Shown piece by piece: positions 1 through 20,098 of a stretch of 64,000 bases of DNA (the first letter of the stretch is position 1; each line of letters starts with the position of its first letter). The notes under the pieces were generated by a model. The model was not told the origin of the DNA. It did no database searches and worked only from the letters and a program-made list of their open reading frames with translations. Made by a program: the position numbers and the translations under genes. This DNA comes from Streptomyces sp. NRRL S-244 (GTDB lineage: Bacteria; Actinomycetota; Actinomycetes; Streptomycetales; Streptomycetaceae): NCBI RefSeq assembly GCF_000717915.1, contig NZ_JOCX01000020.1, forward strand, positions 40,412-104,411. Direction: 5' to 3'.

Positions 1-628
1 GACTTTGCATCACAGCATGTCTGCGTCGGCGATTTCCGCGACCCGGCGTCGGTTCGAGTCAGATTCGGGTGACCTCCAGGGCATCGTCCAACTTCGGATG
101 CTCGGCCAAGGCTACGACTTCCCGCCGATCACCGTGGTCGTGCCGGTGCGGCCTTACGGCAGCTTCGGTGAGTTCTACCAGTTCGTGGGGCGTGGTGTAC
201 GCGTCCTGCGACATGCGAGCGTCCCCACCGACGAGCAGTACATGGACGTGGTCTGCCACGCAGAATTGGGCCTAGAGGAACATCTGGAGGCCATGTGCGT
301 GGACAACGACCTGGATCCCGCGGTGCTGCTCGACGCCCCGCTCATCGATGCCGCATCACTGTCGGATGGAACCGAAGGCAGCGATGGCGAAAGGGGTGAT
401 GAGTCTGCAGACACCGGACCGGCCGGGGTGGATGCGTTCGTGCTGTACGAACGGGGCCGCGTCGAGCAGCGTGTGGTGCACGACCTGGAACGGGTGGAGG
501 CGAGACGAGCCGAGCGGGGGATGCAGCTGATGGCGCAGCGTTACGCCGTCTATGCGCAGAGTTCCACGACCCCCATGCCGTTCGAGCAGTTCGTCGAGTA
601 CGTGAGGAGGCTGACCGGTGGCCAGTGA
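1..628 (+). CDS. SF2 (DEAD/DEAH-type) helicase, C-terminal part, truncated by the window edge
   Basis: The frame is open at the left edge, so only the last ~208 residues are present. Near the start, LGQGYDFP fits helicase motif V and QFVGRGVRV fits motif VI (QxxGRxxR, arginine finger), so this is the second RecA-like lobe of a superfamily 2 helicase. An acidic Ser/Asp/Gly-rich linker follows around residues 115-145 of the visible part, then a charged helical tail (DLERVEARRAERG). The helicase motor and its Walker motifs must lie upstream. The stop overlaps the next gene by 11 bp, so the two are probably translated together. Third positions are less GC-biased than in genes after 7.6 kb. A TTG at position 5 can be read as a start but would leave no ATPase lobe, so I treat the gene as partial. 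Helicase family is well supported; the specific role is inferred. Confidence 0.75.
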   Translation, partial: TLHHSMSASAISATRRRFESDSGDLQGIVQLRMLGQGYDFPPITVVVPVRPYGSFGEFYQFVGRGVRVLRHASVPTDEQYMDVVCHAELGLEEHLEAMCVDNDLDPAVLLDAPLIDAASLSDGTEGSDGERGDESADTGPAGVDAFVLYERGRVEQRVVHDLERVEARRAERGMQLMAQRYAVYAQSSTTPMPFEQFVEYVRRLTGGQ

Positions 629-3335
629 TCAACTGCGATGGTGGCAAGAGGCCATCGTCGTGAGCCCAGCCGAGGCCCTCGCTCTGGAGACTGCCGCGGG
701 CCAGGACCAGCGGTTCGCCGAACTCGACGGGATGGCCGCGAGACTCCTGGAAGCCGCACTCAACGGGCAGCCGATCGTCAGAGTCACCCAGGCTAAGGGG
801 CCTCAGACCTCCGACACCGTCGCCTTGGTGGGTCTCTCGCCGCACGAGGGCCTGATCTGCACGGACGTGTTTGGTGTCCAGGAGCAGCAGCGTCGGGGGG
901 CCTGGTACCTACCGCAGAAGTTGTCTCTGAAGGCTGGTGTGGTGAACCTGCCGCATCTGATGCGACGGCGCGCGGCTCATGCGATGACGGTTACAGCGGA
1001 CGACACTGCCAGGATCAGCGCCGTGGACAGCGCCGATCTGGTGTTGTTGTGGGCATTGTTGAACCCGTTGTTCGAAACGCTGATGGAGCCGGTCCGGATC
1101 CGGGCGGCAGGGCCGATCGGATCGGTTGAGGAACAGCGGCAGCTGTGGGGTGGGATCGAAAGCCGCTTCGCTCGCCTGGGTCTGGCTCCCGATGTCCTGG
1201 AGTGCTTCCGCTTCGGGGCCGGCTGGCACCGCCTGGACCGAGCTGGGCAACATCGCGCACGCCTTGATCTCTTGGACTCACTCGCCGCCAGCGACCTGTC
1301 GCAACTCGTCGCCCGTCATCGCATGACGCAGGTGCAGTCCCTCATGGAGGGCTTCGCCAAGAAGGCCAAGTCCGCCAAGGTCGGGACGGCCCTGGCGCGT
1401 CGCGTGCTGACGCGGGCCCTGCAGCCCGTCGTCTCCGGCTATTTCTCCGGCGACTGGCTCGCTGTGCTGGATTACCTGCAAGCGCCCCCTCATCCGGACG
1501 AGGAAGTCATTACCACGCTCCCCGAGCCTCGCCTGTACGTAGGCATGTCCTCCCAGGCGGCGGCCATGGCGACCGAGTCCGGGGTGGCCGAAGAAGAGAT
1601 CCACGCAGTACTCGCCGCCTTCCTCGGGGGATCGTCTTCACTCTCCCCGATTGAAGAACGCAGTGACGCGCTGCGTGAGTGGTGGACGGCCTTCGACCAG
1701 GCTCACGCCATGCAAGCTCCGGGTATGCGCTCACTGTGGGGATTGGTCGACGAGGACCTCATGGCACTCTCTGGGAACGACCGTGGCCACACTGTCCAGT
1801 TGTACCGAGACATCCTGCCCACCGCTGTGAACGAGCGCGTAGGCCAGTTGTGGGACACGATGACGCTTCAGCGCCATTCCCGCAGCATCGTGAGCAATCC
1901 ACGGCCACACCAGCTGATGGCCGACGCCTTCGGCCCTGCAGTGGACTTCTGGCACGGGGTTGCCCTCACTGCCTGGTTCGTCTGTGAGGGCCCCTACTCG
2001 CGCACCTCTTTGTCCGGCGTCGGTGACTACTACAGACGTTCCCTCACCGAACTCCAGAGGGTCGGCTGTCCAGTCGACCCCTCCCTGTTCGAAGAGCTGC
2101 GTACCGCAGAACAGCACCTGGGGCCGGAGGAGAGGATCACGAGGGACAGGGGGTTCTCGGACGGCACGCCCTTCGGTGACATCACCGTGTCCTCGGGCAT
2201 CGGCTACTCCACTCGTCGTGAGGGCTTCGAGGGCGTGCGCGACATCGTGACACGGCACCGCCGAGCATGGGCTGAGAAACACCTCGACGACTACCTCCGG
2301 CAGCGCTGGCGCACCGAGCTGGAAGATGTGGCCGGTGCCCATCACAGGTTCGTCGCCGCCAAGGGCCGTCCGCCCACCCTGATCCAGTTCGCCCAGTTCG
2401 CCACCACTGCGGCGAATCGCTGGACCGGCGGTGACCTGGGTTCCGTGTACACGGCCATCGGGGAGCCGGCCGCAGCCGAGCAGCACCGGCCCACCCGTCT
2501 GTTGACCTGCGACGGTTATGACTTCGCCCGCAGGGTCTACGACGCGTTGGGCGGCAAGTCTCTCGACCACGACACCTGGATGAACGACCCGGATGAGTCG
2601 CGTCGGCAGTGGCAACTGAGCCGATTGGCCACGGAGAGCCTGCGCTATGTCCAGCTCCATGAGGCACTCGGTGAACCGCCCACCGCGAAGCAGTTCGGCG
2701 CACAGCGCATGACCTGGCCCTGGCCAGGAGAAGAATCCGAAGGCTGGCCGGTTCTCCAGAGCGCGATCAGTACACTCACAACCTCAACCCCTCCGGTGGT
2801 CGCAGATCAGACTGCGGGCAATCTCCGTGCAGGTCCAGTGCAACAACTGGCCAAGGGAGGCAACGCCCCACTGCAGACAGCTCCCGTCACCGTGCGCATC
2901 ATCGCCACCGGAGCGCCCGTCGACGTATCTGCAGTGCTGCTCGCCGCCAACGGCAAAGTGCGCAACGACAACGATCTGGTCTTCTACAACCATCCTCAGC
3001 AGGACGGCGTCCGAGCCGACGGCGACACGGTCACGGCCGTCCTGGGCAGTGTCCCCGATGCCGTCAGGAGCATCGCCGTCGTCGTCAATATCGACCTCGA
3101 GGCCCAACCCACCGCCGTCTTCGACCAGCACACCACCTGGCGGGCCGAGGCTACCCAACTGTCAGGGAACCTCCTGTCGTTCGAGCCGGAGCCCTTCGCA
3201 TCGGGCGAAACGGTCACCGTCGCGATGGAGCTCTACCGGCACTCCGACGGATGGAAGGCCCGCGCCGTCGGGCAGGGCTACGACACCGGACTGGCTGGCC
3301 TGGCCACCGACTACGGCATCGACGTCGAGTCCTGA
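618..3335 (+). CDS. Large protein of unknown function with a C-terminal TerD-like domain
   Basis: 905 residues from a GTG at 618, with AGGAGG at 605-610 (7-nt spacing), overlapping the helicase gene by 11 bp. Residues ~755-905 look like a TerD domain: a VDVSAVLLAANGKV strand, the NDNDLVFYNHP element, a GD loop, then LYRHSDGWKARAVGQGY and LAGLATDYGI, matching the usual FYN(N/H)P and YRH..W..RAVGQGY features of tellurite-resistance/stress proteins. The first ~720 residues match no family I know. They are mostly soluble and helical, contain no Walker motif I can see, and include a conserved-looking patch (GRPPTLIQFAQFATTAANR). TerD domains are calcium-binding modules reported in genomic association with DNA-processing enzymes, which fits the adjacent helicase. 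Function is unknown; a defence role with the helicase is inference. Confidence 0.75.
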   Translation: MASDQLRWWQEAIVVSPAEALALETAAGQDQRFAELDGMAARLLEAALNGQPIVRVTQAKGPQTSDTVALVGLSPHEGLICTDVFGVQEQQRRGAWYLPQKLSLKAGVVNLPHLMRRRAAHAMTVTADDTARISAVDSADLVLLWALLNPLFETLMEPVRIRAAGPIGSVEEQRQLWGGIESRFARLGLAPDVLECFRFGAGWHRLDRAGQHRARLDLLDSLAASDLSQLVARHRMTQVQSLMEGFAKKAKSAKVGTALARRVLTRALQPVVSGYFSGDWLAVLDYLQAPPHPDEEVITTLPEPRLYVGMSSQAAAMATESGVAEEEIHAVLAAFLGGSSSLSPIEERSDALREWWTAFDQAHAMQAPGMRSLWGLVDEDLMALSGNDRGHTVQLYRDILPTAVNERVGQLWDTMTLQRHSRSIVSNPRPHQLMADAFGPAVDFWHGVALTAWFVCEGPYSRTSLSGVGDYYRRSLTELQRVGCPVDPSLFEELRTAEQHLGPEERITRDRGFSDGTPFGDITVSSGIGYSTRREGFEGVRDIVTRHRRAWAEKHLDDYLRQRWRTELEDVAGAHHRFVAAKGRPPTLIQFAQFATTAANRWTGGDLGSVYTAIGEPAAAEQHRPTRLLTCDGYDFARRVYDALGGKSLDHDTWMNDPDESRRQWQLSRLATESLRYVQLHEALGEPPTAKQFGAQRMTWPWPGEESEGWPVLQSAISTLTTSTPPVVADQTAGNLRAGPVQQLAKGGNAPLQTAPVTVRIIATGAPVDVSAVLLAANGKVRNDNDLVFYNHPQQDGVRADGDTVTAVLGSVPDAVRSIAVVVNIDLEAQPTAVFDQHTTWRAEATQLSGNLLSFEPEPFASGETVTVAMELYRHSDGWKARAVGQGYDTGLAGLATDYGIDVES

Positions 3336-4066
3336 GCTGCCCGCCGGCGCCACGTTCAGCGGCCGCCGCCGACGGGCTCCGGCCAGCCGAAGAGTCCGGT
3401 GGCGCCGCACACGCCAATCTCAGGCATGGGCGCTCCCTGCGCCCGGCGGGCTCCAGGTCCGGGGGGACCGGGTCACGCAGCGGCGGACTTGGGCGGGTAG
3501 TTGGGGGTGCGCCAGAACCGGTCGGCCATCCAGGCTTGTCGGTGTCGAGAATGAGCACCACAAACAAGCACGCGCTGTCCGCTCAATCGGTTCAGGCAGC
3601 GTGCGGCGGATCCGACGATGGCACACCGGGCCGTCGACGACTTTCGGCGTGCACTGCTCGCCAAGGACGAGAAGCTACTGGCAGCGGTGGGACGGCAGGA
3701 CTTCAGGCTGGTGCACGGGCCCCGTTACCCGGCCTGCGGACGTTTCTCGATCGGATCTGGTCGGCGAGATCGCAGAACATCTCTCGCCATCTTCAGAAGA
3801 CTCCAGCCGTGTGCAGATATGCGTGATCACAGGCCTATCGGAACTGGGTAAATCGATCCCGTCCGTCGCCAGCCTATTCGGACGGACCTCAAGTAGACGT
3901 CCGGGGCCGACGATTCAGCCACCATCCGGTGCCCGGAGCGGATGCCCTGAGGTCTCGGCGATGGCGTCCTGCGGGGGCACTGTGGCCCGAAGGCCGTGCC
4001 AAGTAGGATGAGCGCACACTGAGTGGTGCGCAGCGAGCAAGACAAACAGGTGCTGCTGTCTGCGGA
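3336..4066. other. 731-bp stretch with no convincing gene
   Basis: Several short open frames cross this interval, but none has a good ribosome binding site, a recognisable domain or consistent codon bias. The longest plausible one (3618-3851, plus strand) begins with a helical-looking stretch that is not followed by conserved sequence. The stretch may be eroded coding DNA from an older gene in the island. A candidate promoter for the downstream NLR-like gene lies at its right end. Confidence 0.5.
3980..4009 (+). promoter_or_regulatory. Candidate promoter for the NLR-like gene
   Basis: TAGGAT at 4004-4009 resembles a streptomycete -10 box. CTGTGG at 3980-3985 lies 18 nt upstream as a weak -35. 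Transcription would begin about 50 nt before the ATG at 4067. The -35 match is poor. Confidence 0.25.
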
Positions 4067-6679
4067 ATGAGGAGGGGCGGGGACAAGTTGATTTCCTCCA
4101 TGCCTGCGGCAGTCGGCGTGCCTCTCATCAACTTCCGGGCGCACGAGCTCCGTACCGGCAGCGTGGACGGAGCCCGCGCCGAGTTCGAGAAGATGATCGC
4201 GGAGCTGGCCGGGGCCACGACTCCGAACGTCCGCAGAATCGAGGCCAATCCCGGGGACTGGGGCGTGGACGCGTTCGCCGGAGACCTCGGCGGTGCGATC
4301 GCCGTGTGGCAGTGCAAATACTTCATGCCTGTGACTACCACAAGCCACTCACAGCAGATCCGAGAGTCCTTCGCCCAGGCGCTGAAGGCGGCGCAAGCCA
4401 ACGGTCACACGATTACGGAGTGGGTGCTGTGCATCCCTTCCTGCATGGACGGTCCCGCGGCGAAATGGTGGGACGGGTGGAAGAAGCGAACTGAGCAGGG
4501 CCACGGTGTCGTGCTTCGGTTGTGGGACGAAACGGAGCTGATGCGCAGGCTTCACAGTCCCGAGGGCGACCCGGTGCGTCGGGCTTACTTCGAGCCCAGG
4601 GGCACTTCCGTGGAGTTGGTGGACAAGGTGTCGAACGTGCGATCCGGGCTGTTCATAGGCCGGGCGGGTGAACTCCGCGCGCTGGACGCGGCGTTCTCCG
4701 AGGCGGGTCACGCCGTGGTCCACACGGTGCACGGTCTGGGCGGGGTCGGGAAATCGGCGCTTGCAGCGCACTGGGCAGCGGGCCGGCCCGAGGCAGTGCG
4801 GTGGTGGATCACCGCCGACAGTACGTCCGCTGTGGATGCCGGGTTGGCCGCGCTTGCACGGGCCCTTCACCCTAGGCTGACCAGCCAACCCGCCGAGGAA
4901 CAGACCGAGACCGTAATGCGGTGGCTTGCCACGCACGACCAGTGGCTGCTGGTGCTCGACAATGTCGAGGACCCGGCCCATATCCGTCCACTGCTGGACC
5001 GGATCCCGGGTGGCCTGGTCCTGATCACCAGCCGTCGGGCGACCGGTTGGCACCACGATGCCACAAGCAGCCGACTCGGCACCCTCTCTCCGACCGACGC
5101 CGTAGAACTGTTCGCCCGGGTCCTCACCCACCACGGGCCACGGGAGACTGGCGGAGCGAACGCTCTGTGCGAGGAACTCGGATATCTAGCACTGGCCGTG
5201 GAGCAGGCCGCCGCGTACTGCGCCGAGACAGGCATCACCCCGCGCGACTACCTGGGCATGTTGGCTGAGCATCCTGCGACGGTGTTCGCCGCCGGCCCCG
5301 AGGGCAGCGAGTCCGACCGCACCGTAGCCCTAATCTGGCGCCTAACCCTCGACCGTCTGACCGACACCCCACTGGCTGGGGACATCCAACGCATCCTGGC
5401 CTGGTACTCCCCCGACCGCATTCCCCGCGACCTCCTCGACGCTCTCGCAGAGCCGCCGGAACGCGCGACCGCGATCGGCCGGCTCATCGCCTACAGCATG
5501 GTCGTCGACAACCACGACGGCACCCTGTCCGTCCACCGCCTCGTCCAGGCCCTTGCACGCACCGCAGACCCTCGCGACCCCCACCGCCGCACCGCCGCCA
5601 TCAACCAAGCCCGCGGGCAAGCCACAACCCTCCTGGCAAATGCCTTCCCCACCGAACTCGACCAGCCCCGAAATTGGCCGCGCTTCCGAGCGCTCCTGCC
5701 TCACAGCGACACCCTCACCAGCCTGCACACCCCCGACCACGACACCGTTCACACCGCCCGTATCCTCAACTGCGCCGCAGTGTTCCGGCAGGCGCAGGGC
5801 TTACCGGCCGCAATCGTTCCCACCTTCGAGCGCGTGCTCGACATCCGCGAGCGGGTTCTCGGTAGTGACCATCCCCACACTCTGATCTCTCGCAACAATT
5901 TGGCATACGCATATCAAGAGGCAGGCCAGCCGGGCCGCGCGATTCCGTTGTACGAACGGACCTTGAGAGAGTTCGAGCGTGTGTTGGGCGACGAACACCC
6001 CGACACGATGATGACCAGCAACAACCTTGCGGGCGCGCACCAGAAAGCGGGCGACATACGCCGCGCGATCCAGCTCTTCGAGCGCACTCTGCAAGACCGG
6101 GAGCGGGTGCTGGGTAAGCGCGCCCCCGACACTCTGGTCTCGCGCAACAACCTGGCGGCCGCATACCAAGAGGCGGGCGACGTGAACCGGGCCATCCCGG
6201 TATTGGAGCGCTCATTGGAAGAGTGTGAGCGGGTCCTGGGCGACGACCACCCGACCACGCTGACCTTCAGTAACAACCTGGCCGCCGCCTACCAGGAGGC
6301 GGGCGACGCGGACCACTCGATCCTGCTGTACGAACGCACCCTAGAAATCTGCGAGCGGGTGCTGGGCAAAGACCACCCCACCACCATCATTTCCCGCGAG
6401 GACCTCGCTGCCGCCTACCGGGCTGCAGGTGACCTGGACCGCGCGATCACACTGCACAAGCGCACCCTGCACGGCCAGGAGCAGGAACTGGGCCAAGACC
6501 ACCCCAACACCCTGGCCTCACGTAGCAACCTCGCGCTCCTATACGCGGCTGCGGGCGACCTGAATCGCGCGACCCGGCTGTACGAAGTCCTCCTGAAGGA
6601 CTGCGAGCGGGTACTGAGGTCGGGGGATCCGGTGACCGCTCAAGTGCGAGCGAACCTGGAACGCGTGCGGTCCATGTAG
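4067..6679 (+). CDS. NLR-like STAND NTPase: Mrr-type nuclease domain, NB-ARC ATPase, TPR array
   Basis: 870 residues. Residues ~20-180 look like a PD-(D/E)XK nuclease of the Mrr type: Asp68 in GDWGVDAF followed by Gln82-x-Lys84 in AVWQCKYF. NB-ARC follows: Walker A GLGGVGKS at 223-230, Walker B LLVLDNVED at 294-302, sensor-like LITSR at 319-323. From ~590 to the end there are about seven ~42-residue TPRs of the kinesin-light-chain type (ERVLGxDHPxTLxSxNNLAxAY). This order, effector-STAND ATPase-repeat sensor, is that of bacterial NLR-like antiphage proteins such as Avs. Start is uncertain: the ATG at 4067 has no Shine-Dalgarno, whereas AGGAGGGG at 4070-4077 fits a TTG at 4088. Residue numbers count from 4067. 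It appears to be a single-gene unit after a 731-bp gap. The domain reading is strong; the antiviral role is inferred from family knowledge. Confidence 0.85.
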   Translation: MRRGGDKLISSMPAAVGVPLINFRAHELRTGSVDGARAEFEKMIAELAGATTPNVRRIEANPGDWGVDAFAGDLGGAIAVWQCKYFMPVTTTSHSQQIRESFAQALKAAQANGHTITEWVLCIPSCMDGPAAKWWDGWKKRTEQGHGVVLRLWDETELMRRLHSPEGDPVRRAYFEPRGTSVELVDKVSNVRSGLFIGRAGELRALDAAFSEAGHAVVHTVHGLGGVGKSALAAHWAAGRPEAVRWWITADSTSAVDAGLAALARALHPRLTSQPAEEQTETVMRWLATHDQWLLVLDNVEDPAHIRPLLDRIPGGLVLITSRRATGWHHDATSSRLGTLSPTDAVELFARVLTHHGPRETGGANALCEELGYLALAVEQAAAYCAETGITPRDYLGMLAEHPATVFAAGPEGSESDRTVALIWRLTLDRLTDTPLAGDIQRILAWYSPDRIPRDLLDALAEPPERATAIGRLIAYSMVVDNHDGTLSVHRLVQALARTADPRDPHRRTAAINQARGQATTLLANAFPTELDQPRNWPRFRALLPHSDTLTSLHTPDHDTVHTARILNCAAVFRQAQGLPAAIVPTFERVLDIRERVLGSDHPHTLISRNNLAYAYQEAGQPGRAIPLYERTLREFERVLGDEHPDTMMTSNNLAGAHQKAGDIRRAIQLFERTLQDRERVLGKRAPDTLVSRNNLAAAYQEAGDVNRAIPVLERSLEECERVLGDDHPTTLTFSNNLAAAYQEAGDADHSILLYERTLEICERVLGKDHPTTIISREDLAAAYRAAGDLDRAITLHKRTLHGQEQELGQDHPNTLASRSNLALLYAAAGDLNRATRLYEVLLKDCERVLRSGDPVTAQVRANLERVRSM

Positions 6680-7592
6680 TCATCGCACATCCTTCGCCAA
6701 TCCACCTCGGGTGGTCCGACCGCCAGCAGCCATCAACCGGGACGGAGCGAGCCCACCCCCGCGAGGAGACGCGGGTCGCGATCCCTCGCCGCCACACCCC
6801 GCGCCAGCCGAACATCCGCGTATATGGACCATCCGCGACCGCATCGGCCGCCACTGGGTCGTCCACCCCTGGGCACTCGCGGACGACCGTCCGGGCGCTG
6901 GCAGGCAATCACCGGCGCTACAGACCCTCCCGCGGAACCGCACCCGGCGACGAAGAGACCCTTCGCCGAGGAGGACCTGGACGCCTCTGCCGCTACGGCG
7001 AGGGGGCTTCTTCACCAGCGACCCACGTCCGGGCGGGAGTCGACATCGGCTACCGGCCTTCGCACCTTCGATCACGTCGAAGGGAGCCTAACGACGGCCA
7101 GGGTGTGCGCCACCTCGATGCACCACTACGGCCCCCGCAGCCCAAAGTCTGCTCGACCTCCCGCAGCGGCTGACCGTCGACAACGCCCAAAACATTCGGA
7201 TCCGCCTCGGTCAGCACGCTACTCTGTCGTTGTCTCATCTCCACAAAAAGCGGCCGCCGCGGACCGACGGGTGCCTACCGAATCTGGATCGATGATCTCG
7301 TCGTCCCATATGGCACCGCGGCCTGGCTTGCTGCAGGACCCGAAGGTGTGCCACGAACTGCGGATCACACAGAGATTCAGACGTATCTGAGTCGGCCCAT
7401 CGACGTCACCCAGAGGTGAACCAGAGTCAGCATTCGTCCTGGCACACCCTGACGCGAACGGCCACACCTGAGAATCAGGCTGGAGGCGCCGACCGGCTTC
7501 TGGCTTCGTTGAAAGGTGTTGAGAACGCGCAGAGGTCCAGGCCTCGCCTCCTCTCGACGAGGCCCGGACTCGCATCCCGAATGCTCACATAG
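6680..7592. other. 913-bp stretch with no convincing gene, possibly decayed coding DNA
   Basis: No frame here has a ribosome binding site together with a recognisable domain. A plus-strand frame through about 7142-7290 reads QSLLDLPQRLTVDNAQNIRI, which looks protein-like but lacks a start and soon stops. Other short frames are proline/arginine-rich and look non-coding. Base composition remains like the island genes to the left. It ends at the 3' end of the pirin gene, where GC rises sharply, so the island boundary is probably in this interval. Confidence 0.45.
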
Positions 7593-8558
7593 TCAACGCA
7601 CACGACCCCGTGGTTTCAACTGAGTTGGGGGAATCTCGGGGGCCGGGATCGAGGGCCCGTCGTAGCCTTTGACCTCGCCGAATCGGGTTCCGTTCATCCA
7701 GTCCTCACGGGCCTGAACGACCTCTTCATGACTCCTGGCGACCCAGTTCCAGAACATCACGATCTCCTCCTCGAACGGTTCGCCGCCCAGGAGCATCAGG
7801 GCCGCGTCCGAGGTCGCGCGCAGGGGGAGTTCCGTGCGGCCGCAGCCGAGGTAGAGCATCGAGCCCGGGAGGACCGGGACGCCGTCCACGTGGGCCTCCC
7901 CCGCCATCGACAGCACCGCGTACTCGAAGTCCGGGTCGAGCGGGAGCCGGGTCTCCGTGCCCGCCGCGAGCGCCAGGTCAGCGCCGACGATCGGGCTGTA
8001 CGCCGTGCCCGGCGAGGTCGCCGTGTCCAGGGTGCCCAGGATGACCGTCGCCGTCAGGCCCGGGGCGGTCACCTGCGGGAGCTCCGCGTGGTGCTGGAAA
8101 TGGGGCTCCACATTGCGGTGCTCGTCCGGGAGGGCCACCCACAGCTGGGCCCCGTGCAGGATGCGGCCGTGCGAGCGCGGGCTCTCCTCCGAGTGGCTGA
8201 TCCCGCGGCCGGAGGTCATCAGGCCGAGCTCGCGCGGCCGGATCGTCTCGAGGCTGCCCACGCTGTCCCGGTGCAGCACCTCGCCGTCGTGCAGCCAGCT
8301 CACCGTCTGGAGCCCGGAGTGGGGGTGCGGGGCGACCTGCATGCCGGGCTCGCCCGCGATGTCGTCCGGGCCGTAGTGGTCGACGAAGCACCAGGCGCCC
8401 ACCATGCGGCGGCCCAGGTTCGGCAGGAGTCGGCGGACCTCGGTGGATTCCCCGAGCTTGACCGTGCGCGGGCTGAGGAGCTCGCGCACGGGTTCGGCCA
8501 CGACGAAGCCGCGGCCGCCGCAGGCGGAGAGAGCGGGCTGGCGATCGAGATTGCTCAT
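7593..8558 (-). CDS. Pirin family protein
   Basis: 321 residues from the ATG at 8558. It carries the pirin N-terminal signature: FVDHYGP followed by VAPHPHSGLQTVSWLHDGEVLHRDS, with the metal-binding histidines of the cupin fold, then GRGISHSEES and the C-terminal pirin domain ending around GGEPFEEEIVMFWNWV. Bacterial pirins are cytosolic iron-binding cupins; some have quercetinase activity, others are redox-linked regulators. Which applies here cannot be told from sequence. It is divergent from the small TPR gene with a 107-bp intergenic gap. Open reading continues upstream of the ATG in frame, but that part is antisense to other genes and is not coding. GC content is typical of the chromosome, unlike the left flank. 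Confidence 0.9.
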   Translation of the reverse strand: MSNLDRQPALSACGGRGFVVAEPVRELLSPRTVKLGESTEVRRLLPNLGRRMVGAWCFVDHYGPDDIAGEPGMQVAPHPHSGLQTVSWLHDGEVLHRDSVGSLETIRPRELGLMTSGRGISHSEESPRSHGRILHGAQLWVALPDEHRNVEPHFQHHAELPQVTAPGLTATVILGTLDTATSPGTAYSPIVGADLALAAGTETRLPLDPDFEYAVLSMAGEAHVDGVPVLPGSMLYLGCGRTELPLRATSDAALMLLGGEPFEEEIVMFWNWVARSHEEVVQAREDWMNGTRFGEVKGYDGPSIPAPEIPPTQLKPRGRVR

Positions 8559-8665
8559 ACCCCACAACTTAGTACCGACACCGGCGCCGCGTTCGGTGGA
8601 ATGTCCGGCCGCCCTCACGTGTTGGGGCAGGCGGACACACCACCTGAACGGCGGAAGGGATCTCG

Positions 8666-9016
8666 ATGAACGCGCCGACGACGTACTTCGAGCACGGCAC
8701 GGCGGCCGAGCGCTGGGAGCGCGCCCGGCTCTTCTTCGACGCGAAGGAGTACACGACGGCCGCGAACATCCTGGAGGCGCTGGCCGGCGAGGCCCCCGAG
8801 CAGCTCGCGCCCCGGCTGCTGCTGGCCCGCGCCTACTACCACTCCGCCCGGCTCTCCCGCGCCGAGCACGAGCTCCGCGCCATCCTCGAGCGCTGGCCGG
8901 TGGAGGATTACGCGCAGCTGATGCTCGGCCGGACGCTGGAGCGCCAGGGCCGGGCCGAAGAAGCCCGCCCCCACCTGCGGATGGCCGCCGCGATGGCGGG
9001 CGAGTTCCCCGAGTAG
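8666..9016 (+). CDS. Small tetratricopeptide repeat protein
   Basis: 116 residues, ATG at 8666 preceded by a GGAAGGGA ribosome binding site. It is almost entirely alpha-helical and contains about two and a half TPR units (RWERARLFFDAKEYTTAANI, LLLARAYYHSARLSRAEHEL, LGRTLERQGRAEEARPHLRM). It has no signal peptide or membrane segment. Small TPR proteins act as protein-protein adaptors; the partner is unknown. The last codons and stop (CCCCGAGTAGC) are duplicated 24 bp downstream in the same frame, followed by a strong hairpin terminator. Divergent from pirin. Confidence 0.85.
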   Translation: MNAPTTYFEHGTAAERWERARLFFDAKEYTTAANILEALAGEAPEQLAPRLLLARAYYHSARLSRAEHELRAILERWPVEDYAQLMLGRTLERQGRAEEARPHLRMAAAMAGEFPE

Positions 9017-9046
9017 CACCGCAGGTGGTGCCCCGAGTAGCCCACC

Positions 9047-9074
9047 GCCCGGCCCCGTGTGTGCGGGGCCGGGC
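9047..9074 (+). terminator. GC-rich hairpin terminator
   Basis: GCCCGGCCCCG at 9047-9057 pairs perfectly with CGGGGCCGGGC at 9064-9074 over a 6-nt TGTGTG loop. There is no U-run, as is common in streptomycetes. It ends the small TPR gene and lies just ahead of the methyltransferase gene. Confidence 0.7.
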
Positions 9075-9101
9075 CGCAGCCTCGGTTAGCCTGGGGTCAC
9101 G

Positions 9102-10298
9102 ATGAACCGTCTGACCACGCCTTTCGGCTCCTACGAGCTCACCCGCTTCCCCGAAGACCCGCGCGACCAGCTCCGCGCCTGGGACGCCGCCGACGAGTAC
9201 CTGCTGCGCCACCTCGACTCCGGTACGGGGGAACACGGCCCGGTGGACCTGGCCGGCGCCGGGCAGATCACCATCCTCGGGGACCGCTGGGGGGCGCTCA
9301 CGACGGCGCTGGCCGCGTACCACCCCACGCAGATCACCGACTCCTACCTCGCCCGGGCCGGCACCGCCGCGAACCTGGACCGCGCCGGGATCGGCACCGC
9401 CAAGTCCACGGTGCGGCTGCTGACCACGCAGGACGCGCCGCCCGAGCGGATCGACGTACTCCTCGTACGGGTGCCGAAGAGCCTGGCGCTGCTGGAGGAC
9501 CAGCTGTACCGGCTGGCGCCGCACGTGCACGCCGGCACGGTCGTCGTGGGCACGGGCATGGTCAAGGAGATCCACACCTCCACGCTGAAGCTCTTCGAGA
9601 AGATCCTCGGCCCGACGAAGACCTCGCTCGCCGAGAAGAAGGCCCGACTGATCTTCTGCACGCCGAGCGCCACCTCGACGCGGGCCGTCGACCCGTGGCC
9701 GGTGACGTACACGCTGGACGAGGACGCGGGCTCGGGCGCCGGCCTGACCGCCGTCAACCACGCCGGGATCTTCTGTGCCGACCGGCTCGACGTCGGCACC
9801 CGCTTCTTCCTCCAGAGCATCCCGAACAACACGAACGGCGCCCGGGTCGTGGACCTGGGCTGCGGCAACGGCATCGTCGGCACGGCGGTCGCGGTCGCGG
9901 ACCCGCGCGCCGAGATCGTGTTCACCGACGAGTCGTACCAGGCCGTCGCCTCGGCGAAGGCCACGTTCCGCGCCAACGTGCAGCACGAGCGCGAGCGGGC
10001 CGACTTCCTCGTCGGCGACGGCGTGGCCATGCTGGACCCGGGCTCGGTCGACCTGGTGCTGTGCAACCCGCCGTTCCACTCCCACCAGGCGACGACGGAC
10101 GCCACGGCGCTGCGCATGTTCGCGCAGTCGCGCAAGGTGCTGCGCCCGGGCGGTGAGCTGTGGGTGGTCGCCAACCGCCACATGGGCTACCACACCCACC
10201 TGCGCCGCCTGTTCGGCAACAGCGAAGTCGCCGCGAGCGAACCGAAGTTCGTGGTGCTGCGGGCGGTCAAGCAGGAGGACCGGCCGCGCCCCATGTGA
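9102..10298 (+). CDS. Class I SAM-dependent methyltransferase, RlmG/RsmC-like rRNA guanine-N2 type
   Basis: 398 residues from the ATG at 9102. Motif I is VVDLGCGNGIVGTAVA (around residues 250-265) and motif IV is LVLCNPPFHS, the NPPF signature of N2-guanine/N6-adenine methyltransferases. Length and the pseudo-methyltransferase-like N-terminal half match RlmG (23S rRNA m2G1835 methyltransferase) and its relative RsmC. The likely reaction is transfer of methyl from SAM to a guanine exocyclic amine in rRNA; the exact target base cannot be fixed from sequence. It is cytosolic. Its own promoter probably lies in the 27 bp after the upstream terminator or the mRNA is nearly leaderless, as no strong Shine-Dalgarno is visible. 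Confidence 0.85.
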   Translation: MNRLTTPFGSYELTRFPEDPRDQLRAWDAADEYLLRHLDSGTGEHGPVDLAGAGQITILGDRWGALTTALAAYHPTQITDSYLARAGTAANLDRAGIGTAKSTVRLLTTQDAPPERIDVLLVRVPKSLALLEDQLYRLAPHVHAGTVVVGTGMVKEIHTSTLKLFEKILGPTKTSLAEKKARLIFCTPSATSTRAVDPWPVTYTLDEDAGSGAGLTAVNHAGIFCADRLDVGTRFFLQSIPNNTNGARVVDLGCGNGIVGTAVAVADPRAEIVFTDESYQAVASAKATFRANVQHERERADFLVGDGVAMLDPGSVDLVLCNPPFHSHQATTDATALRMFAQSRKVLRPGGELWVVANRHMGYHTHLRRLFGNSEVAASEPKFVVLRAVKQEDRPRPM

Positions 10299-10350
10299 CC
10301 TGCCGGTACACCCGCCGGTAGCTCCCCCGGTTCGCCCTACACTCGGCCGC

Positions 10351-11133
10351 GTGAGCAGCCAGGTACGAGAAGACGACGGTACGGACGGCAGCGCGGGCGG
10401 CGCCACCACCGCCGAGCGCTACCGCCGCGAGGACCTGGCCCGCGCGGCCGGCGTCAAGGTGCGCAACCTGCGCTACTACCAGGAGCGCGGGCTGCTCCCG
10501 CCGCCGCGCCGCGAGGGCCGCATCGCCTGGTACTCCGCGGACCACCTGACCCGGCTGCGCCTGATCAGCGATCTCCTCGGGCGCGGGTACACCGTCAACG
10601 GGATCGCCGAGCTGCTGCACGCCTGGGAGGCGGGCGGGGGCCTGTCCCAACTCCTGGGCCTGGAGCGGGCGATGACCCGCGACTGGGTCCACGAGGAGCC
10701 GGTCACCATGACCCTGGCCGAGCTGCGCGGGCTCTTCGGCCCGACGGGGACGGCCGAGGACACCCGGCGGGCCGCGGAGCTGGGGTACGTACGCATCGAG
10801 GGCGACCGGGTCACGCACCGGAGCCGGCGCCTGCTGGAGGCCACGCTCACGCTCGTGCGGCAGGGCGTGCCGCTCGCGGAGATCCTCGACGCGGGGGACT
10901 TCGTACAGACGCAGGCGGCCGCGCTCGCCGACCGGTTCGTCGGACTGTTCCGGCGGCATGTGATCGGACCGGACGGGCTGGAGCGACTTTCGGCCACCCA
11001 ACTGGATCACATCTCGGACGCGGTGGCGGCGCTGCGTCCGGTGGCGGGCGAGGTCGTGGCGTCGGAGTTCGCCCGGGCGATGGCCCGGCGGGTGGAGGCG
11101 GAGGTCGCCCAACTGCTCCGGAAGGACGCGTAA
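10351..11133 (+). CDS. MerR family transcriptional regulator
   Basis: 260 residues from a GTG at 10351. The helix-turn-helix and wing are clear: REDLARAAGVKVRNLRYYQE followed by RGLLPPPRREGRIAWYSADH. A dimerisation helix follows (LLGRGYTVNGIAELLHAWEA). The C-terminal ~160 residues form a helical region without the cysteine pattern of metal-sensing MerR proteins or an obvious drug-binding GyrI domain, so the signal is unknown. It is 52 bp downstream of the methyltransferase gene in the same direction and may be co-transcribed. Degenerate GCGTAA/CCGC repeats follow the stop. Confidence 0.9.
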   Translation: MSSQVREDDGTDGSAGGATTAERYRREDLARAAGVKVRNLRYYQERGLLPPPRREGRIAWYSADHLTRLRLISDLLGRGYTVNGIAELLHAWEAGGGLSQLLGLERAMTRDWVHEEPVTMTLAELRGLFGPTGTAEDTRRAAELGYVRIEGDRVTHRSRRLLEATLTLVRQGVPLAEILDAGDFVQTQAAALADRFVGLFRRHVIGPDGLERLSATQLDHISDAVAALRPVAGEVVASEFARAMARRVEAEVAQLLRKDA

Positions 11134-11302
11134 AGCCGCGTAATACCGCATGAGGGCGCGTAAGGCCGCACCGGAAGGCAGTGACCGATCGGTAGGAGTC
11201 GGCCGAAAAGGCACGGCCGAGCAACCTTGCCAACCCCCATTGGCACTCTTACATTCAACTCGTCGGTAACAACGATGCACAGCCGAAATAAGGGACGATC
11301 TC

Positions 11303-13046
<1,744 letters not shown>

Positions 13047-13071
13047 GGGACGGCGGCAACCCGCGCAGAAA

Positions 13072-13113
13072 GAGGCCCGCCGGCCCCGGAGCGATCCGGG
13101 ACCGGCGGGCCTC
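13072..13113. terminator. Bidirectional hairpin between convergent genes
   Basis: GAGGCCCGCCGG at 13072-13083 pairs with CCGGCGGGCCTC at 13102-13113, and inner CCGGA/TCCGG arms lengthen the stem. It sits between the secreted-protein operon and the 3' end of the penicillin acylase gene, so it can end transcription from both sides. Confidence 0.75.
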
Positions 13114-13192
13114 AGCGGTGGTACGCGCGGGGCCTCAGCGGTGGTACGGGCGGGGCCTCCCCGCCCGTACGCGCGGGCCTCAGCGGTGCGCC
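13107..13192. repeat. Triplicated 3'-end sequence of the acylase gene
   Basis: The element GGCCTCAGCGGTG occurs near 13109, 13132 and 13177. The last copy holds the acylase stop codon and the final His-Arg codons. The middle and last copies are 45 bp apart and in frame, so the stop context is repeated downstream of the real stop. Confidence 0.55.
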
Positions 13193-15942
13193 GGGAACTC
13201 CACCACCTGCTGGTACGTGGGCCGGTTCTGCCAGTTGATCTGCGGGTGGCTCAGCCCGCCCACCGGACGCTGCACGATCGAGTCCGCGCACCACTGGTTC
13301 CCGGCCGCGCAGGTCCCGTCGGCCGGGTACACCGACGCCGGGGTCGCGGAGGCCGCCTGCTTGAGCGTGGCCGCCATCGCGTCGCGGCACGCGGACAGCG
13401 AGCCGCCTCCGCAGTACGCCTTGGCCAGCGGACCGGCGACCGGGCGCCCGAGCACCGTGCGCAGGTCCTTGTCCGCGTAGCTCCACCAGCCGTACTGGAA
13501 CGCCGACCCGGCATGCGAACCGGTGGGCCCGTGCCCCGCGTTGGGCGCCTCGTCGACGGTCAGCGAGGCCCGCAGGGCGTCGTAGAGCGGCGCCCCGAGC
13601 CCCGGTTTGAACTCGGCCTCGATCAGCAGCGGCCACCAGGCGTCCATGATCCGGACGGCGTCGGCGTGAGCGTACGCCTTCGAGCCCTGAGCGGTCTCCT
13701 TGCGCTCGGTCCCTGCCGCCTGCCACGCCGCCAGCTTGTCGACGGCGGCGGCCACCGCCGGATCGGTGACCGGCTGGCTGCGTACCACCGCGAGCAGCTC
13801 GGGCAGCAGGTTCTCGGCCCGCAGGTCGGTGACGGCCGCGTCCGCCATGGCCTGGGTGAGCTTGGCCCGGGTGACCCCGCCCGCGGCGACGAGCGGTTTC
13901 ACGCGCTGGTCGAGGAGGTCGCCGCGGTGCACGGAGCCCATGCCGAAGCCGGCCGCGCCGTACCCCTTGGCCTGCTTGTTGTTCCAACTGATGTAGTAGT
14001 CCTGCCCGATGGACTGCGGGTGCTCGGCGGGCGGCGTGTACGCGGCGGTGTTGGCCGCCGGGTCGAAGCCCTGCCACTCGTACTGCTGCTTCGCCGCGAT
14101 CGGCAGCGCGGCGTCGACCCCGGCCGGCCGGACCGGGTTCGAACCGCTGTTGTAGTACGCCGCTTCGCGCGCGTCGGCGTAGAACCAGTTGAAGGCGTAG
14201 CCGATGTGCTGGGCGGCCTGCTGGAACGTGCGGGCGTCCGTCACGTACGAGGGGTCGTTGAGCATCTGGAAGCCGATGATCGAGTCGGCCTCGTGGCGGT
14301 ACGTGGAGCGCAGCGCGGTGTAGGCCACGGGCTTGCCCGCGATGGTGGCGCGGTGGGTCACGATGCCGTAGTTCGTCCGCCAGACCTGCATCCGGTACGA
14401 GCCGTTCGGCGTCGGGTCGGCCACCGAGGACTTCCAGGTGTTGGTGCGCTCCAGCTTCTCCATGGGGGTGCAGGTGCCGCGGTAGAGGTACGAGGCGCTC
14501 GCGGTGGTCGGGGCCCCGCCGCCCGGCTCGCACAGCTCGACGGCGAAGGTGTCGGTGATGTCCTGCCCGGCGGAGGTGGCGCTCCAGGCGTAGTCCTGGC
14601 CCCGGCCGAGCTGGACGTACATGCTCACCCCGGCGAAGGAGGCGCCCCGGGCGCTGATGCCGGGGCCCTGGAGCTCCTGGAGCATGAGGAGTTGGGGTGC
14701 GAGGTAGCCGGTCTGCGGGCCGAAGACGGCGACGGGGTGGCCGCTCGCGGTCTTCGCCCCCGAGACGAGCAGGGCGTTGGACATGCTCTGCTTGACCGGC
14801 TTCGGCGGGTTCGCGGCGGCAGCGGTGGCCGCCGCGCCCGTGCGGTCGTAGACCAGCTGCTCGGCGGTGACCGAGCCCGGATCCGGGAGCGCGGCGCCCT
14901 GCGGGTTCGCGGGCTTCTGCGCGTACGGGAAGCTCGTGCCGTCGTGGACGGTGAGCACGGCCTCGGGGTCGTCGCGTTCGCGGAAGGACTCCCAGACCCG
15001 GGTGCCCTCCTCCAGGCCGTACTTCTGCTGCGCCGAGAGCAGGGAGAGCGCGGCCTGCACCTCGCCGCCGCCACCGCCGCCGAACAGCCCGCCGACGACG
15101 GAGGCGAGGGCGATCAGGTCGGTGGTCTTGAACGGCTGGATCTCGCCGGCGTTGGTGATGGAGTCGATGTGGCCGGTGAGGACGTACTCGCCGGGGAAGT
15201 AGCGGCCGTTCTTGGACTGCACGCGGTAGGCGTTGATGCCGTCGACGTACGCCTGCGCGTCCTCCATCGCGAGGCGGCCGCGGTCGCCCTCGGTGGTGCG
15301 GATCCGGTCCACCTGCGCCTGGAGGTCGGCCTCGGTGTACGGGGCCTGCGGCCAGAACTGCTGCTCCAGGCCCTGGTTGGCGAGGGCGCCGCCGGCGAAC
15401 GGGGTCAGGTCGCCGCGGCCGACGTGGCGGAAGAGGTCCATCTGCCAGAGCCGGTCCTGGGCGGCGGCGAAGCCCGCGCCGAAGGAAGTGCCGTAGCGGG
15501 TGGTGCCCTTGATGTGGGGGACGCCGGTCTTCTTGTCGCGGGTGATGGTGACGTCGGAACGCGGGCTGGCGGTGGACTCGACCTGGTCGGCGGGGACCCC
15601 GAAGGACGCGTCGTTGAAGAAGTCGTTGACCTTGGCGTCGGTGAGCCCGGGATATCCGGCCACCAGCGAGTCGTAGCGGGCCAGTTGGTCGGAGGCGTGG
15701 GCGGGCATCGTGCCGAACGCCTTGTGCAGGAGGATCTGGGCGAGGGTCGCGTTGCCGTTCTGGCCGGGCGGCAGGATGTCCGCGCACTGGCCGCCGCAGT
15801 AGTCGGCGACGGGAAGCGGCACGGGATCGGCGGACGGCGCGGCGGTCGCGGCCGCGGTCGCGAGCGGGGAGAGCAGGGCGGCTCCGAGGGCGATCACCCC
15901 GGCGGCTACGGCAGTTCTCAGGCGGGCGGTGGGACGTCGCAT
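13180..15942 (-). CDS. Secreted penicillin acylase family Ntn-hydrolase
   Basis: 920 residues, ATG at 15942 with GGAGGAG 6 nt upstream. A Sec-type signal peptide (AGVIALGAALLSPLATAAAT) indicates export. The alpha region contains GVPHIKGTTRYGTSFGAGFA and AAQDRLWQMDLFRH, typical of penicillin/acyl-homoserine-lactone acylases. The likely autocatalytic cleavage site is before Ser388 in KQSMSNALLVSG; that Ser-Asn would become the N-terminal nucleophile of the beta chain, with LGRGQDYAWSATSAGQDITD downstream carrying oxyanion residues. The family hydrolyses amide bonds of penicillins, acyl-homoserine lactones or cyclic lipopeptides (aculeacin acylase type); the substrate cannot be told. It converges on the DUF6230 operon. 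A good match in length and motifs. Confidence 0.9.
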   Translation of the reverse strand: MRRPTARLRTAVAAGVIALGAALLSPLATAAATAAPSADPVPLPVADYCGGQCADILPPGQNGNATLAQILLHKAFGTMPAHASDQLARYDSLVAGYPGLTDAKVNDFFNDASFGVPADQVESTASPRSDVTITRDKKTGVPHIKGTTRYGTSFGAGFAAAQDRLWQMDLFRHVGRGDLTPFAGGALANQGLEQQFWPQAPYTEADLQAQVDRIRTTEGDRGRLAMEDAQAYVDGINAYRVQSKNGRYFPGEYVLTGHIDSITNAGEIQPFKTTDLIALASVVGGLFGGGGGGEVQAALSLLSAQQKYGLEEGTRVWESFRERDDPEAVLTVHDGTSFPYAQKPANPQGAALPDPGSVTAEQLVYDRTGAAATAAAANPPKPVKQSMSNALLVSGAKTASGHPVAVFGPQTGYLAPQLLMLQELQGPGISARGASFAGVSMYVQLGRGQDYAWSATSAGQDITDTFAVELCEPGGGAPTTASASYLYRGTCTPMEKLERTNTWKSSVADPTPNGSYRMQVWRTNYGIVTHRATIAGKPVAYTALRSTYRHEADSIIGFQMLNDPSYVTDARTFQQAAQHIGYAFNWFYADAREAAYYNSGSNPVRPAGVDAALPIAAKQQYEWQGFDPAANTAAYTPPAEHPQSIGQDYYISWNNKQAKGYGAAGFGMGSVHRGDLLDQRVKPLVAAGGVTRAKLTQAMADAAVTDLRAENLLPELLAVVRSQPVTDPAVAAAVDKLAAWQAAGTERKETAQGSKAYAHADAVRIMDAWWPLLIEAEFKPGLGAPLYDALRASLTVDEAPNAGHGPTGSHAGSAFQYGWWSYADKDLRTVLGRPVAGPLAKAYCGGGSLSACRDAMAATLKQAASATPASVYPADGTCAAGNQWCADSIVQRPVGGLSHPQINWQNRPTYQQVVEFPAHR

Positions 15943-16109
15943 ACGTGCTCCTCCGTGGGGCAGGAAGCGGTCACGGGGGAGGGTACTGGCGGGGCCTACC
16001 GCTCAGTAAGATGAACGACCGTCACTTTTCAGGGGAGTTGACGTCCCCGACCGTGCGTCGGGCATAAATCCGTTGCCGGACGTGCGGGGTGTCGGACAGG
16101 CTCGCTGCC

Positions 16110-16411
16110 ATGTCACCACAAGAGCGCCGTGTCGCCGACCTCTTCTCCGGCGGGCGGCTCATCGCCATCCCGCGCAAGGCCGCCCGCCGCGAGCAGCTGC
16201 TCGCCCCCTCACCGAGACCCTCTTCGCGGAGGGCCGCACGTACACCGAGCCCGAGGTGAACGACGCGCTGCGCACCGTGCACGAGGACTGCTCGGCGCTG
16301 CGGCGCTACCTGATCACCTCGGGCTTGCTGACCCGGACCCGCGACGGCAGCAGCTACCGGCGGGCCGACGTCGTGGACCCGGCTATCCCCGGTACGCCTC
16401 CAGCAGCCTGA
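16110..16411 (+). pseudogene. DUF2087 gene interrupted by a -1 frameshift
   Basis: The ATG at 16110 opens a frame reading RRVADLFSGGRLIAIPRKAA, the N-terminal half of a DUF2087 domain. The C-terminal half (FAEGRTYTEPEVNDALRTVH then LRRYLITSGLLTRTRDGSSY) lies in a different frame. The two join if one base is added at the CCCCC run at 16204-16208, giving a normal ~100-residue product. So this is either a single-base deletion inactivating the gene or an assembly error at the homopolymer. DUF2087 proteins are small, probably nucleic-acid-linked proteins often paired with MarR/ArsR regulators. The 3' end overlaps the convergent reductase gene by 29 bp. Confidence 0.75.
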
Positions 16412-17822: not shown

Positions 17823-17969
17823 CCGTGGTTCCAGGGGCGCTTGTTCCCTGTCACCTTACGTGCGGAGCGTGGGGCGGGCGGGAGACGCGCGGCGGCCGCG
17901 CGCAGACGCACCCCGACCGCCCGGCAGACACGCCGTACGCGGTCCCGCGGACGGTCGGCGGGTCGGAGC

Positions 17970-18359
17970 TCAGGCCTCCGACGTGCCGGGCTGCCCGTCC
18001 TGCTGCGACGCGGCGATCTTCGCGCGGACCTCGTCCATGTCCAGCGCCCGCGCCTGCCCGATCAGGTCCGTCAGCGCGGCCTCCGGCAGCGCGCCGGGCT
18101 GCGCGAAGATCGCCACCTGGTCCCGGACGATCATCAGCGTCGGGATCGAGGTGATCTGGAAGGCGGCGGCCAGCTCCTGCTGCGCCTCCGTGTCCACCTT
18201 GGCGAAGACCAGGTCGGAGTGGGCCTCCGAGGCCTTCTCGTAGACCGGGGCGAACTGGAGGCAGGGCCGGCACCAGCCCGCCCAGAAATCGATCAGCACG
18301 AACGGGTTCTCGCTGACCGTCTGGTCGAAGTTCTCCTTGGTGAGCTCGACAGTAGCCAC
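17970..18359 (-). CDS. Thioredoxin
   Basis: 129 residues from a GTG at 18359, with AGGAGG 9 nt upstream. It has the thioredoxin fold with the active site WAGWCRPC (Cys30, Cys33), in which Arg replaces the usual Gly of WCGPC, and the conserved cis-proline in TSIPTLMIV. It is cytosolic: there is no signal peptide. A C-terminal extension of ~20 residues rich in Gln and Ser lies beyond the usual 105-110 residues. It probably accepts electrons from a thioredoxin reductase encoded elsewhere; the neighbouring disulfide reductase (148 bp downstream in the same direction) is of the lipoamide class, so pairing is possible but unproven. Confidence 0.92.
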   Translation of the reverse strand: MATVELTKENFDQTVSENPFVLIDFWAGWCRPCLQFAPVYEKASEAHSDLVFAKVDTEAQQELAAAFQITSIPTLMIVRDQVAIFAQPGALPEAALTDLIGQARALDMDEVRAKIAASQQDGQPGTSEA

Positions 18360-18460
18360 GGTTCCAGACCTCCTGATTGCCTTGTATGCACCTTGAACGA
18401 TCGGCTCGCCCCGTGCATTCCGCCACGGCGTACGTACGGCGCGATGCGCGGCGCACGTAC

Positions 18461-18486
18461 GGGCCGCCGCACGGCGTCGGCGGCCC
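18461..18486 (-). terminator. Hairpin after the aldehyde dehydrogenase gene
   Basis: GGGCCGCCG (18461-18469) pairs with CGGCGGCCC (18478-18486) over an 8-nt loop, flanked on both sides by copies of GCACGTAC. It lies 17 bp beyond the dehydrogenase stop and upstream of the thioredoxin gene. Confidence 0.55.
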
Positions 18487-18502
18487 GCACGTACCTGCCG
18501 TC

Positions 18503-19942: not shown

Positions 19943-20098
19943 GGCGCGGGGCCTCCGGTGGGAATGGGGCGGGGCGGGGGGCGGCAGCACGCGCCATCGT
20001 GCCAGACCGGAGGCACCACATCTGTTCAGTTATTGGGCAGTTGACGGGCCACCGTGACCGGAAACGATCGACGGCCCCGCGGAGTGGGTGGGTTGGGT

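Follow-up and report, generated by a model that had tools for sequence, protein, structure and literature searches.

What does a TerD domain do at the end of a very large protein whose gene overlaps that of a helicase? The question is raised by the left end of a stretch of 64,000 nucleotides from Streptomyces sp. NRRL S-244 ("the window", bases 40412-104411 of contig NZ_JOCX01000020.1, in a genome of 7.1 Mb), and the first 40 kb of the contig, upstream of the window, were read as well (stretches L009 and L010; names in L, G and P stand for stretches, genomes and proteins). The original prediction had described a pair of helicase and TerD fusion at this place. The linkage between both was borne out, but the unit comprises three genes instead of two, and we consider it probable from the sequence data that these represent a mobile, restriction-like module of soil bacteria directed against invaders.

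The operon lies on the + strand and is composed of three overlapping genes: gene 1 (198 amino acids, aa), gene 2 (a nuclease-helicase of 690 aa) and gene 3 (the TerD fusion of 905 aa). Reading on upstream of the window gave the full helicase, with a DUF559-type nuclease N-terminal to the superfamily 2 (SF2) motor, and in addition gene 1. Genes 1 and 2 overlap by 4 bp, the TGA stop of gene 1 being located within the ATG of gene 2, and the predicted overlap of 11 bp between gene 2 and the 905-aa open reading frame (ORF), which begins with GTG, was confirmed. Both overlaps are identical across 6 out of 6 Streptomyces loci compared, with GTG replacing ATG in one and the 11-mer differing at one base in two. 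In 3 out of 3 helicase-holding loci outside Streptomyces the overlap between the helicase gene and the gene of the conserved part of gene 3 (residues 1-720, "the core") is 8 bp. Scans for promoters (0 found, 0.6 expected by chance) and terminators (1 found, 2.2 expected) yielded nothing above chance.

Eleven distinct loci were read, six from Streptomyces with TerD (G000, L011, L046, L047, L054, L055) and five without TerD (L053, L062, L063, L064, L065). The rows dropped before counting were G456, G579 (21 bits), the plasmids H1 and H2, which are near-identical to H3, and L052, the second copy in G539. The G456 row is an 84-residue core remnant (L056), with no gene 1 in the stretch and no helicase in the genome; H1 holds the same parts as H3, and L052 holds core and helicase. 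Gene 1 occurs beside the core in 11 out of 11 loci, and according to profile matches the helicase lies between genes 1 and 3 in 9 out of 11. The recurrence of a helicase beside the large protein, which had been named as a check on the prediction, was thereby found.

The same linkage is seen in genome counts. Of 150 Streptomyces genomes drawn, three (G000, G505 and G539) contain the full-length core and a fourth, G456, a remnant, and the helicase (E-value 1e-60) is confined to the same three; for unrelated rare genes, and with kinship ignored, the chance of such a co-occurrence is about 2e-6. Twenty of 120 listed core relatives are located on contigs of exactly the same size as that of one of 120 listed helicases, compared to a mean of 0.32 and a maximum of 3 in a control in which the contig sizes were shifted by 1-50 bases. 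For gene 1, 25 out of 81 relatives match the contig size of a core relative (first 70 core relatives). The three genes overlap and, judged by these comparisons, travel together.

Gene 2 starts with a nuclease-type domain (DUF559, PF04480/MTES_1575, PF18741), followed by ResIII and Helicase_C. PF04480 scores above its cut-off (E-value 1.8e-06, 28.2 bits, cut-off 20.6) and PF18741 below (E-value 2e-08, 34.6 bits, cut-off 38.2), while the motor profiles PF04851 and PF00271 match with E-values of 4.4e-14 and 6.3e-06. The nuclease columns D, E-L-D-G and H as well as the motor columns G-GKT (Walker A) and DEAH are invariant in 18 out of 18 aligned relatives; motif VI is kept in 17 of them, the exception being P0164. 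By its conserved motifs gene 2 is a predicted PD-(D/E)XK-type nuclease domain joined to an SF2 translocase.

The solved relatives of this helicase are three, namely 7clg (a 953-aa putative helicase, which we take to be SauUSI), RadD and the R subunit of a type I restriction enzyme. The best of them is 7clg (E-value 2e-12), and an SF2 motor with a nuclease domain is shared with SauUSI-like type IV restriction; the PADLOC profile mREase_IV also matches residues 408-683 of gene 2 in its 792-aa read (E-value 5.4e-14). In contrast to the SauUSI-like enzymes, the nuclease here is of the DUF559/MTES_1575 type, and two more proteins are always or nearly always co-encoded. The type I R subunit (HsdR, 3h1t) likewise joins a nuclease to an SF2 translocase, whereas the three-gene unit contains no methyltransferase or specificity gene, methyltransferases being present only as other neighbours of some loci. 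The repair helicase RadD (6jde, E-value 1.8e-06) is also a related SF2 helicase, but this likeness is confined to the motor, and the operon partners and the rare, mobile distribution of gene 2 differ. The module appears to belong with the nuclease-helicase defence systems and looks undescribed as a gene set. In agreement with the claim that it is no named system, searches of the open full-text literature did not show the set as such, while a prior mention is possible in subscription papers, notably in the 2012 paper on Ter systems considered below.

In gene 3 the TerD profile (PF02342, residues 767-899) is the sole Pfam match above chance (E-value 7.3e-24, 84.7 bits, cut-off 25.3), covering profile positions 40-187 and leaving the first 39 positions unmatched. 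The AlphaFold2 model of the 905-aa protein has a mean predicted local distance difference test score (pLDDT) of 89.8; in Foldseek as well as in VIA-align the C-terminal part of this model aligns with TerD structures, and residues 740-904 share the fold of the TerD proteins 3ibz and 2kxt. Profile and fold together bear out the TerD-like domain originally placed at residues 755-905. Its difference from TerD proteins lies in the fusion to the 720-aa core and in the absence of most canonical motifs of L003, a TerD from the same genome: in the alignment with L003, the FDLDAS-type and GDNRTGEG-GDDE-type stretches are replaced or shortened. The canonical motifs are associated with calcium binding.

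The part in front of TerD, some 720 residues, had been called unrecognised; it forms a family of its own without a Pfam match above chance. The core is predicted to be mostly helical in the model. It has no significant match in the Protein Data Bank by sequence profile (E-value up to 1), and Foldseek with gene 3 gave no significant match outside TerD; since the core was neither folded nor searched on its own, this lack of a solved match is no evidence for a new fold. Residues 567-605 resemble residues 669-705 with an hhalign probability of 92%, compared to 1% for a control region, and a weak match to HNH_repeat (PF18780) appears in 6 out of 24 family members, either at the region of these two copies or elsewhere (best E-value 0.0078). 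We regard the pair as a hint of DNA-binding modules and no more.

A survey of relatives with the whole 905-aa protein mostly gave TerD domains, with the core in 1 out of 61 genomes (the window's own), and later surveys were therefore performed with the core alone. From 7994 candidates scored, 172 core relatives were obtained. Among the best 120 of these, 67 carry PF02342, 2 carry DUF2510 and 51 carry neither, some of the latter being fragments. Among the matches listed, full-length relatives of at least 56% identity carry TerD, and those of 48% identity or less do not. Of the TerD-less proteins, two terminate in DUF2510, some in hydrophobic, membrane-like tails (P0071, P0078), and others carry nothing behind the core, where one must keep in mind that the tail test is crude and not specific, as it also flagged four TerD-bearing proteins.

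In a tree of 73 of 77 chosen core sequences (4 short ones were dropped) all 27 TerD-bearing sequences fall into one clade of 28 with a support of 0.964, and the remaining member, the copy P0042, is truncated within its TerD tail. The tree agrees with a single gain of TerD, which by these comparisons is a C-terminal addition in one branch (Streptomyces/Kitasatospora). Two sequences count against a pure Streptomyces/Kitasatospora origin: the TerD-bearing P0026, labelled Stenotrophomonas, and P0114, an Ilumatobacteraceae fragment named TerD by its source and without a precomputed PF02342 match. Because relatives outside the branch mostly lack TerD, and keep the helicase and the core of about 720 aa without it, TerD as the defining part of the system was rejected. 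The emphasis that the original prediction placed on TerD as its hallmark was not borne out, given the 51 out of 120 listed relatives and the confinement of TerD to one clade.

Gene 1 is a predicted small helical, TPR (tetratricopeptide repeat)-like protein according to its model (mean pLDDT 76.2), in which the first 45 residues are mostly unordered. In P0224 the gene 1 product and the helicase are fused into one protein, the gene-1 domain being matched with an E-value of 2.1e-21. A separate observation concerns P0317, a 278-aa protein annotated as transposase, in which a gene-1-like stretch makes up 45% of the length; this looks like the outcome of an insertion into gene 1.

The reading as an anti-invader module is supported by the nuclease joined to an SF2 motor, the gene overlaps, the linkage, the fusion P0224, the defence-type neighbours and the Ter cluster in the genome. 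The products of genes 1, 2 and 3 would form one complex, in which the core of gene 3, with its two HNH_repeat-like modules, may bind or read incoming DNA or clamp the complex on DNA, gene 1 could serve as a TPR-type adaptor docking to the helicase, and gene 2 would run along the DNA with ATP and cut via its nuclease domain. Since the module does not include a methyltransferase, it would have to distinguish self from non-self by another route, for instance through a signal, through DNA ends, or through modified bases or replication intermediates. TerD might serve as a regulatory tail, specific to its branch, that connects the machine with the Ter stress pathway of the host, probably by ligand binding, and may gate it by a host signal.

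Several points weigh against this reading. PADLOC-DB 2.0.0 has no match to gene 3 (E-value 1) or gene 1 (E-value 1e-3), and the defence role therefore rests on association, where the neighbours scanned were chosen by eye and without control neighbourhoods, with L062 and L063 excluded from the scan. The HNH_repeat signal is weak, and the TerD domain of gene 3, as it lacks most canonical motifs, may have lost ligand binding. For L053 (genome G397) and L064 (genome G1169), a search of the entire genome at an E-value of 1e-10 did not yield such a helicase; the helicase, missing from 2 out of 11 loci and from both whole genomes, is therefore not indispensable. In L053 genes for an SbcD-like phosphoesterase and an SbcC-like ATPase lie 3' of the core on the same strand, and in L064 a UvrD-type helicase is encoded about 1.7 kb off on the opposite strand. 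From these two cases genes 1 and 3 look like a constant pair with an exchangeable DNA enzyme. Finally, the helicase core also resembles RadD, a repair enzyme.

The last point leads to the main rival, a module for DNA repair or replication stress, in which a RadD/Vsr-type enzyme would process host DNA that is damaged or stalled, with gene 3 as a scaffold and TerD as a tie to chemical stress, for example by metals or oxidants. RadD is among only three solved relatives of the helicase, the N-terminal domain of gene 2 falls into the Vsr (very-short-patch)-like DUF559 group, the SbcD-like and SbcC-like genes of G397 stand in place of the helicase, and the host carries a full Ter synthesis operon. 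Repair genes, however, are usually core genes, whereas the full-length core of gene 3 occurs in 3 out of 150 Streptomyces genomes and 2 out of 396 genomes of the phylum, and the module is found on an integrative element, linear plasmids and chromosome ends, near defence genes. We regard a repair function as rather unlikely.

The module is rare and located on integrative elements, linear plasmids and chromosome ends. Core matches were found in 2 out of 394 genomes drawn from the class and 4 out of 150 from the genus (one being the remnant); for the family of G945 the count is 4 out of 250, and for the order of G397 it is 2 out of 138, one of these scoring 21 bits; these counts, like that for the phylum, each include the centre or own genome. 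Four out of 72,556 plasmid records carry the core, all of them from Streptomyces and typed mobilizable, and gene 3 is split into two frames in two plasmid copies. In G539 a core copy lies about 10.8 kb from each end of the chromosome contig, and in G505 one lies about 38 kb from an end. A phage origin was rejected, as no core match was obtained in 50,697 phage records or, by peptide pattern, in IMG/VR; the helicase has one distant match in IMG/VR (26% identity).

At the present locus a tyrosine integrase ORF (PF00589, E-value 9.9e-15; its listed start is probably too early) precedes gene 1, and next to this integrase the 3' end of a pirin gene, roughly its last 50 codons, is present as a second, incomplete copy (L010:828-993, upstream of the window). 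The repeat of the pirin sequence extends over 166 nt at 73% identity, with a best stretch of 93/119, and the approximately 11 kb between both copies hold the integrase, the three genes and a gene for a protein resembling nucleotide-binding NOD-like receptors (NLR-like). We read this stretch as a putative element inserted at the pirin 3' end, with one border copy displaced. Integration at a tRNA gene was rejected, with no tRNA in L009 or positions 1-20000 of the window and the pirin repeat found instead. In L053 (G397) the core locus lies beside an integrase and two type II methyltransferase-like genes.

This mobility allows a selfish or housekeeping role for the mobile element itself, by maintenance or by exclusion of competing elements and with no anti-phage benefit, for which the integrase-bearing element, the integrase in G397 and the mobilizable linear plasmids are arguments. 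The module also occurs at chromosomal loci of Streptosporangiaceae-like genomes, however, where no integrase was noticed, though none was systematically searched for, and exclusion of competing elements would still be anti-invader; we consider such a role improbable.

A further hint towards an anti-invader module arises from the neighbourhood, and the idea of a nucleic-acid-targeting stress or antiphage role is partly supported by it. The NLR-like protein of the window, 731 bp behind gene 3, combines an LmuA-like domain (PADLOC, E-value 1.4e-49) with NB-ARC and TPR (Pfam) and matches NF040586, FxSxx-type (E-value 3.6e-121), and is by these matches likely a defence protein itself. With regard to Lamassu and Avs, where an LmuA-like nuclease would go with an LmuB SMC partner, the LmuA-like domain is fused here to NB-ARC and TPR; no LmuB was noticed among the ORFs at positions 6679-12000 of the window, where no profile search for LmuB was made. 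L011, L046 and L054 have an NB-ARC/TPR neighbour, and L055 has a 1800-aa NACHT protein without PADLOC match. L054 additionally carries a pPIWI-RE protein, L046 a type I methyltransferase and a DUF262 protein, L047 PDC-S39-like, GajA/OLD-like and restriction-type helicase genes, and L065 a Gabija pair 0.9 kb downstream. The adjacency of an NLR-like gene was found as described; this gene is a neighbour whose type changes between loci and no co-translated partner. That the adjoining NLR is the effector of an abortive-infection or regulatory unit, for which the three genes would provide or process a DNA signal, seems the least probable reading. It is favoured by the presence of an NB-ARC/TPR or NACHT gene behind the TerD fusion in 5 out of 6 Streptomyces loci (G000, L011, L046, L054, L055). 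Against it, the NLRs are not of one kind: those of three loci are about 90% alike, that of the window is 27% identical to these, and that of L055 has no BLAST match to any. Moreover, L047 has the PDC-S39-like gene at that place and no NLR, the gap in the window is 731 bp, and the five loci outside Streptomyces, whose neighbours were scanned only in part, showed no NLR.

Returning to the anti-invader module, its TerD tail points to the Ter pathway. The window's genome has 13 TerD matches, and its contig C23 contains a Ter cluster (L069:1963-8872) with C-C_Bond_Lyase, PRTase_2, TRSP, StiP, PELOTA_1, a TerC-type gene and several TerD genes. By these profiles the host has a predicted Ter synthesis and response system, and the module itself does not carry Ter synthesis genes. 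Ter-dependent stress-response and DNA-processing systems, in which TerD is linked with DNA-processing enzymes as it is here, were reportedly described by Anantharaman, Iyer and Aravind in 2012. The present case differs by the fusion of TerD to the core of a new family, by a DUF559-SF2 enzyme instead of McrBC as partner, and by the lack of TerD in most of the wider core family. In PMC7159879 and PMC7824862 TerD is suggested as a possible sensor of nucleotide-like signals, and PMC3710099 refers to an anti-phage system that depends on TerD and includes McrBC-like components.

TerD is attached here to the DNA-side partner of a nuclease-helicase, which bears on the long-open question of TerD binding and its role. 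A speculative and rather doubtful extension is a signal-gated restriction machine, in which TerD on the DNA-reading subunit switches DNA destruction by a nucleoside-like signal predicted from the host Ter operon. If true, the Ter stress pathway would be connected directly and physically to DNA restriction, through a domain added a single time to a system working elsewhere without TerD. Sister systems lack TerD, which permits a comparison of the machine in both states, and as the Ter synthesis operon is present in the genome as well, a single strain would suffice to test for an effect of a Ter signal on DNA restriction. With this module, the likely anti-invader systems of antibiotic-producing bacteria gain two hitherto undescribed protein families.

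Table 1. Location of the three-gene unit, its parts and its neighbours (positions refer to the window unless preceded by L009).
Feature	Position	Strand	Remarks
Gene 1	L009:14375-14971, upstream of window	+	198 aa
Gene 2, nuclease-helicase	L009:14968-17040	+	690 aa; start 1444 bp upstream of window
Gene 2, C-terminal 208 codons	2..628	+	Helicase_C, motif VI; nuclease domain and N-terminal half of helicase outside window
Gene 3, TerD fusion	618..3335	+	905-aa ORF; GTG start within gene 2
Gene 3, conserved core, residues 1-720	618..2777	+	172 relatives; mostly helical in model; no Pfam match above chance
Gene 3, possible HNH_repeat-like module copy A, residues about 567-605	2316..2432	+	Weak PF18780 match and hhalign
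Gene 3, possible HNH_repeat-like module copy B, residues about 669-705	2622..2732	+	Weak PF18780 match and hhalign
Gene 3, TerD domain, residues 767-899	2916..3314	+	Pfam profile and fold match
NLR-like neighbour, outside three-gene unit	4067..6679	+	870 aa; LmuA-like nuclease, NB-ARC/AAA and TPR repeats
Pirin gene	7593..8504	-	PF02678 3.5e-25, PF05726 2.6e-20; 3' end is right-hand border of 11-kb element

Two further observations were made outside the unit. A protein of 745-755 aa without Pfam match is encoded upstream of the three genes at L046:8011-10278 and L054:3274-5511, the two being 88% alike. Two adjacent ORFs at L009:10019-12491 contain repeated W-G-N-x-GQLGNG-like motifs, which by eye are reminiscent of RCC1-type repeats.

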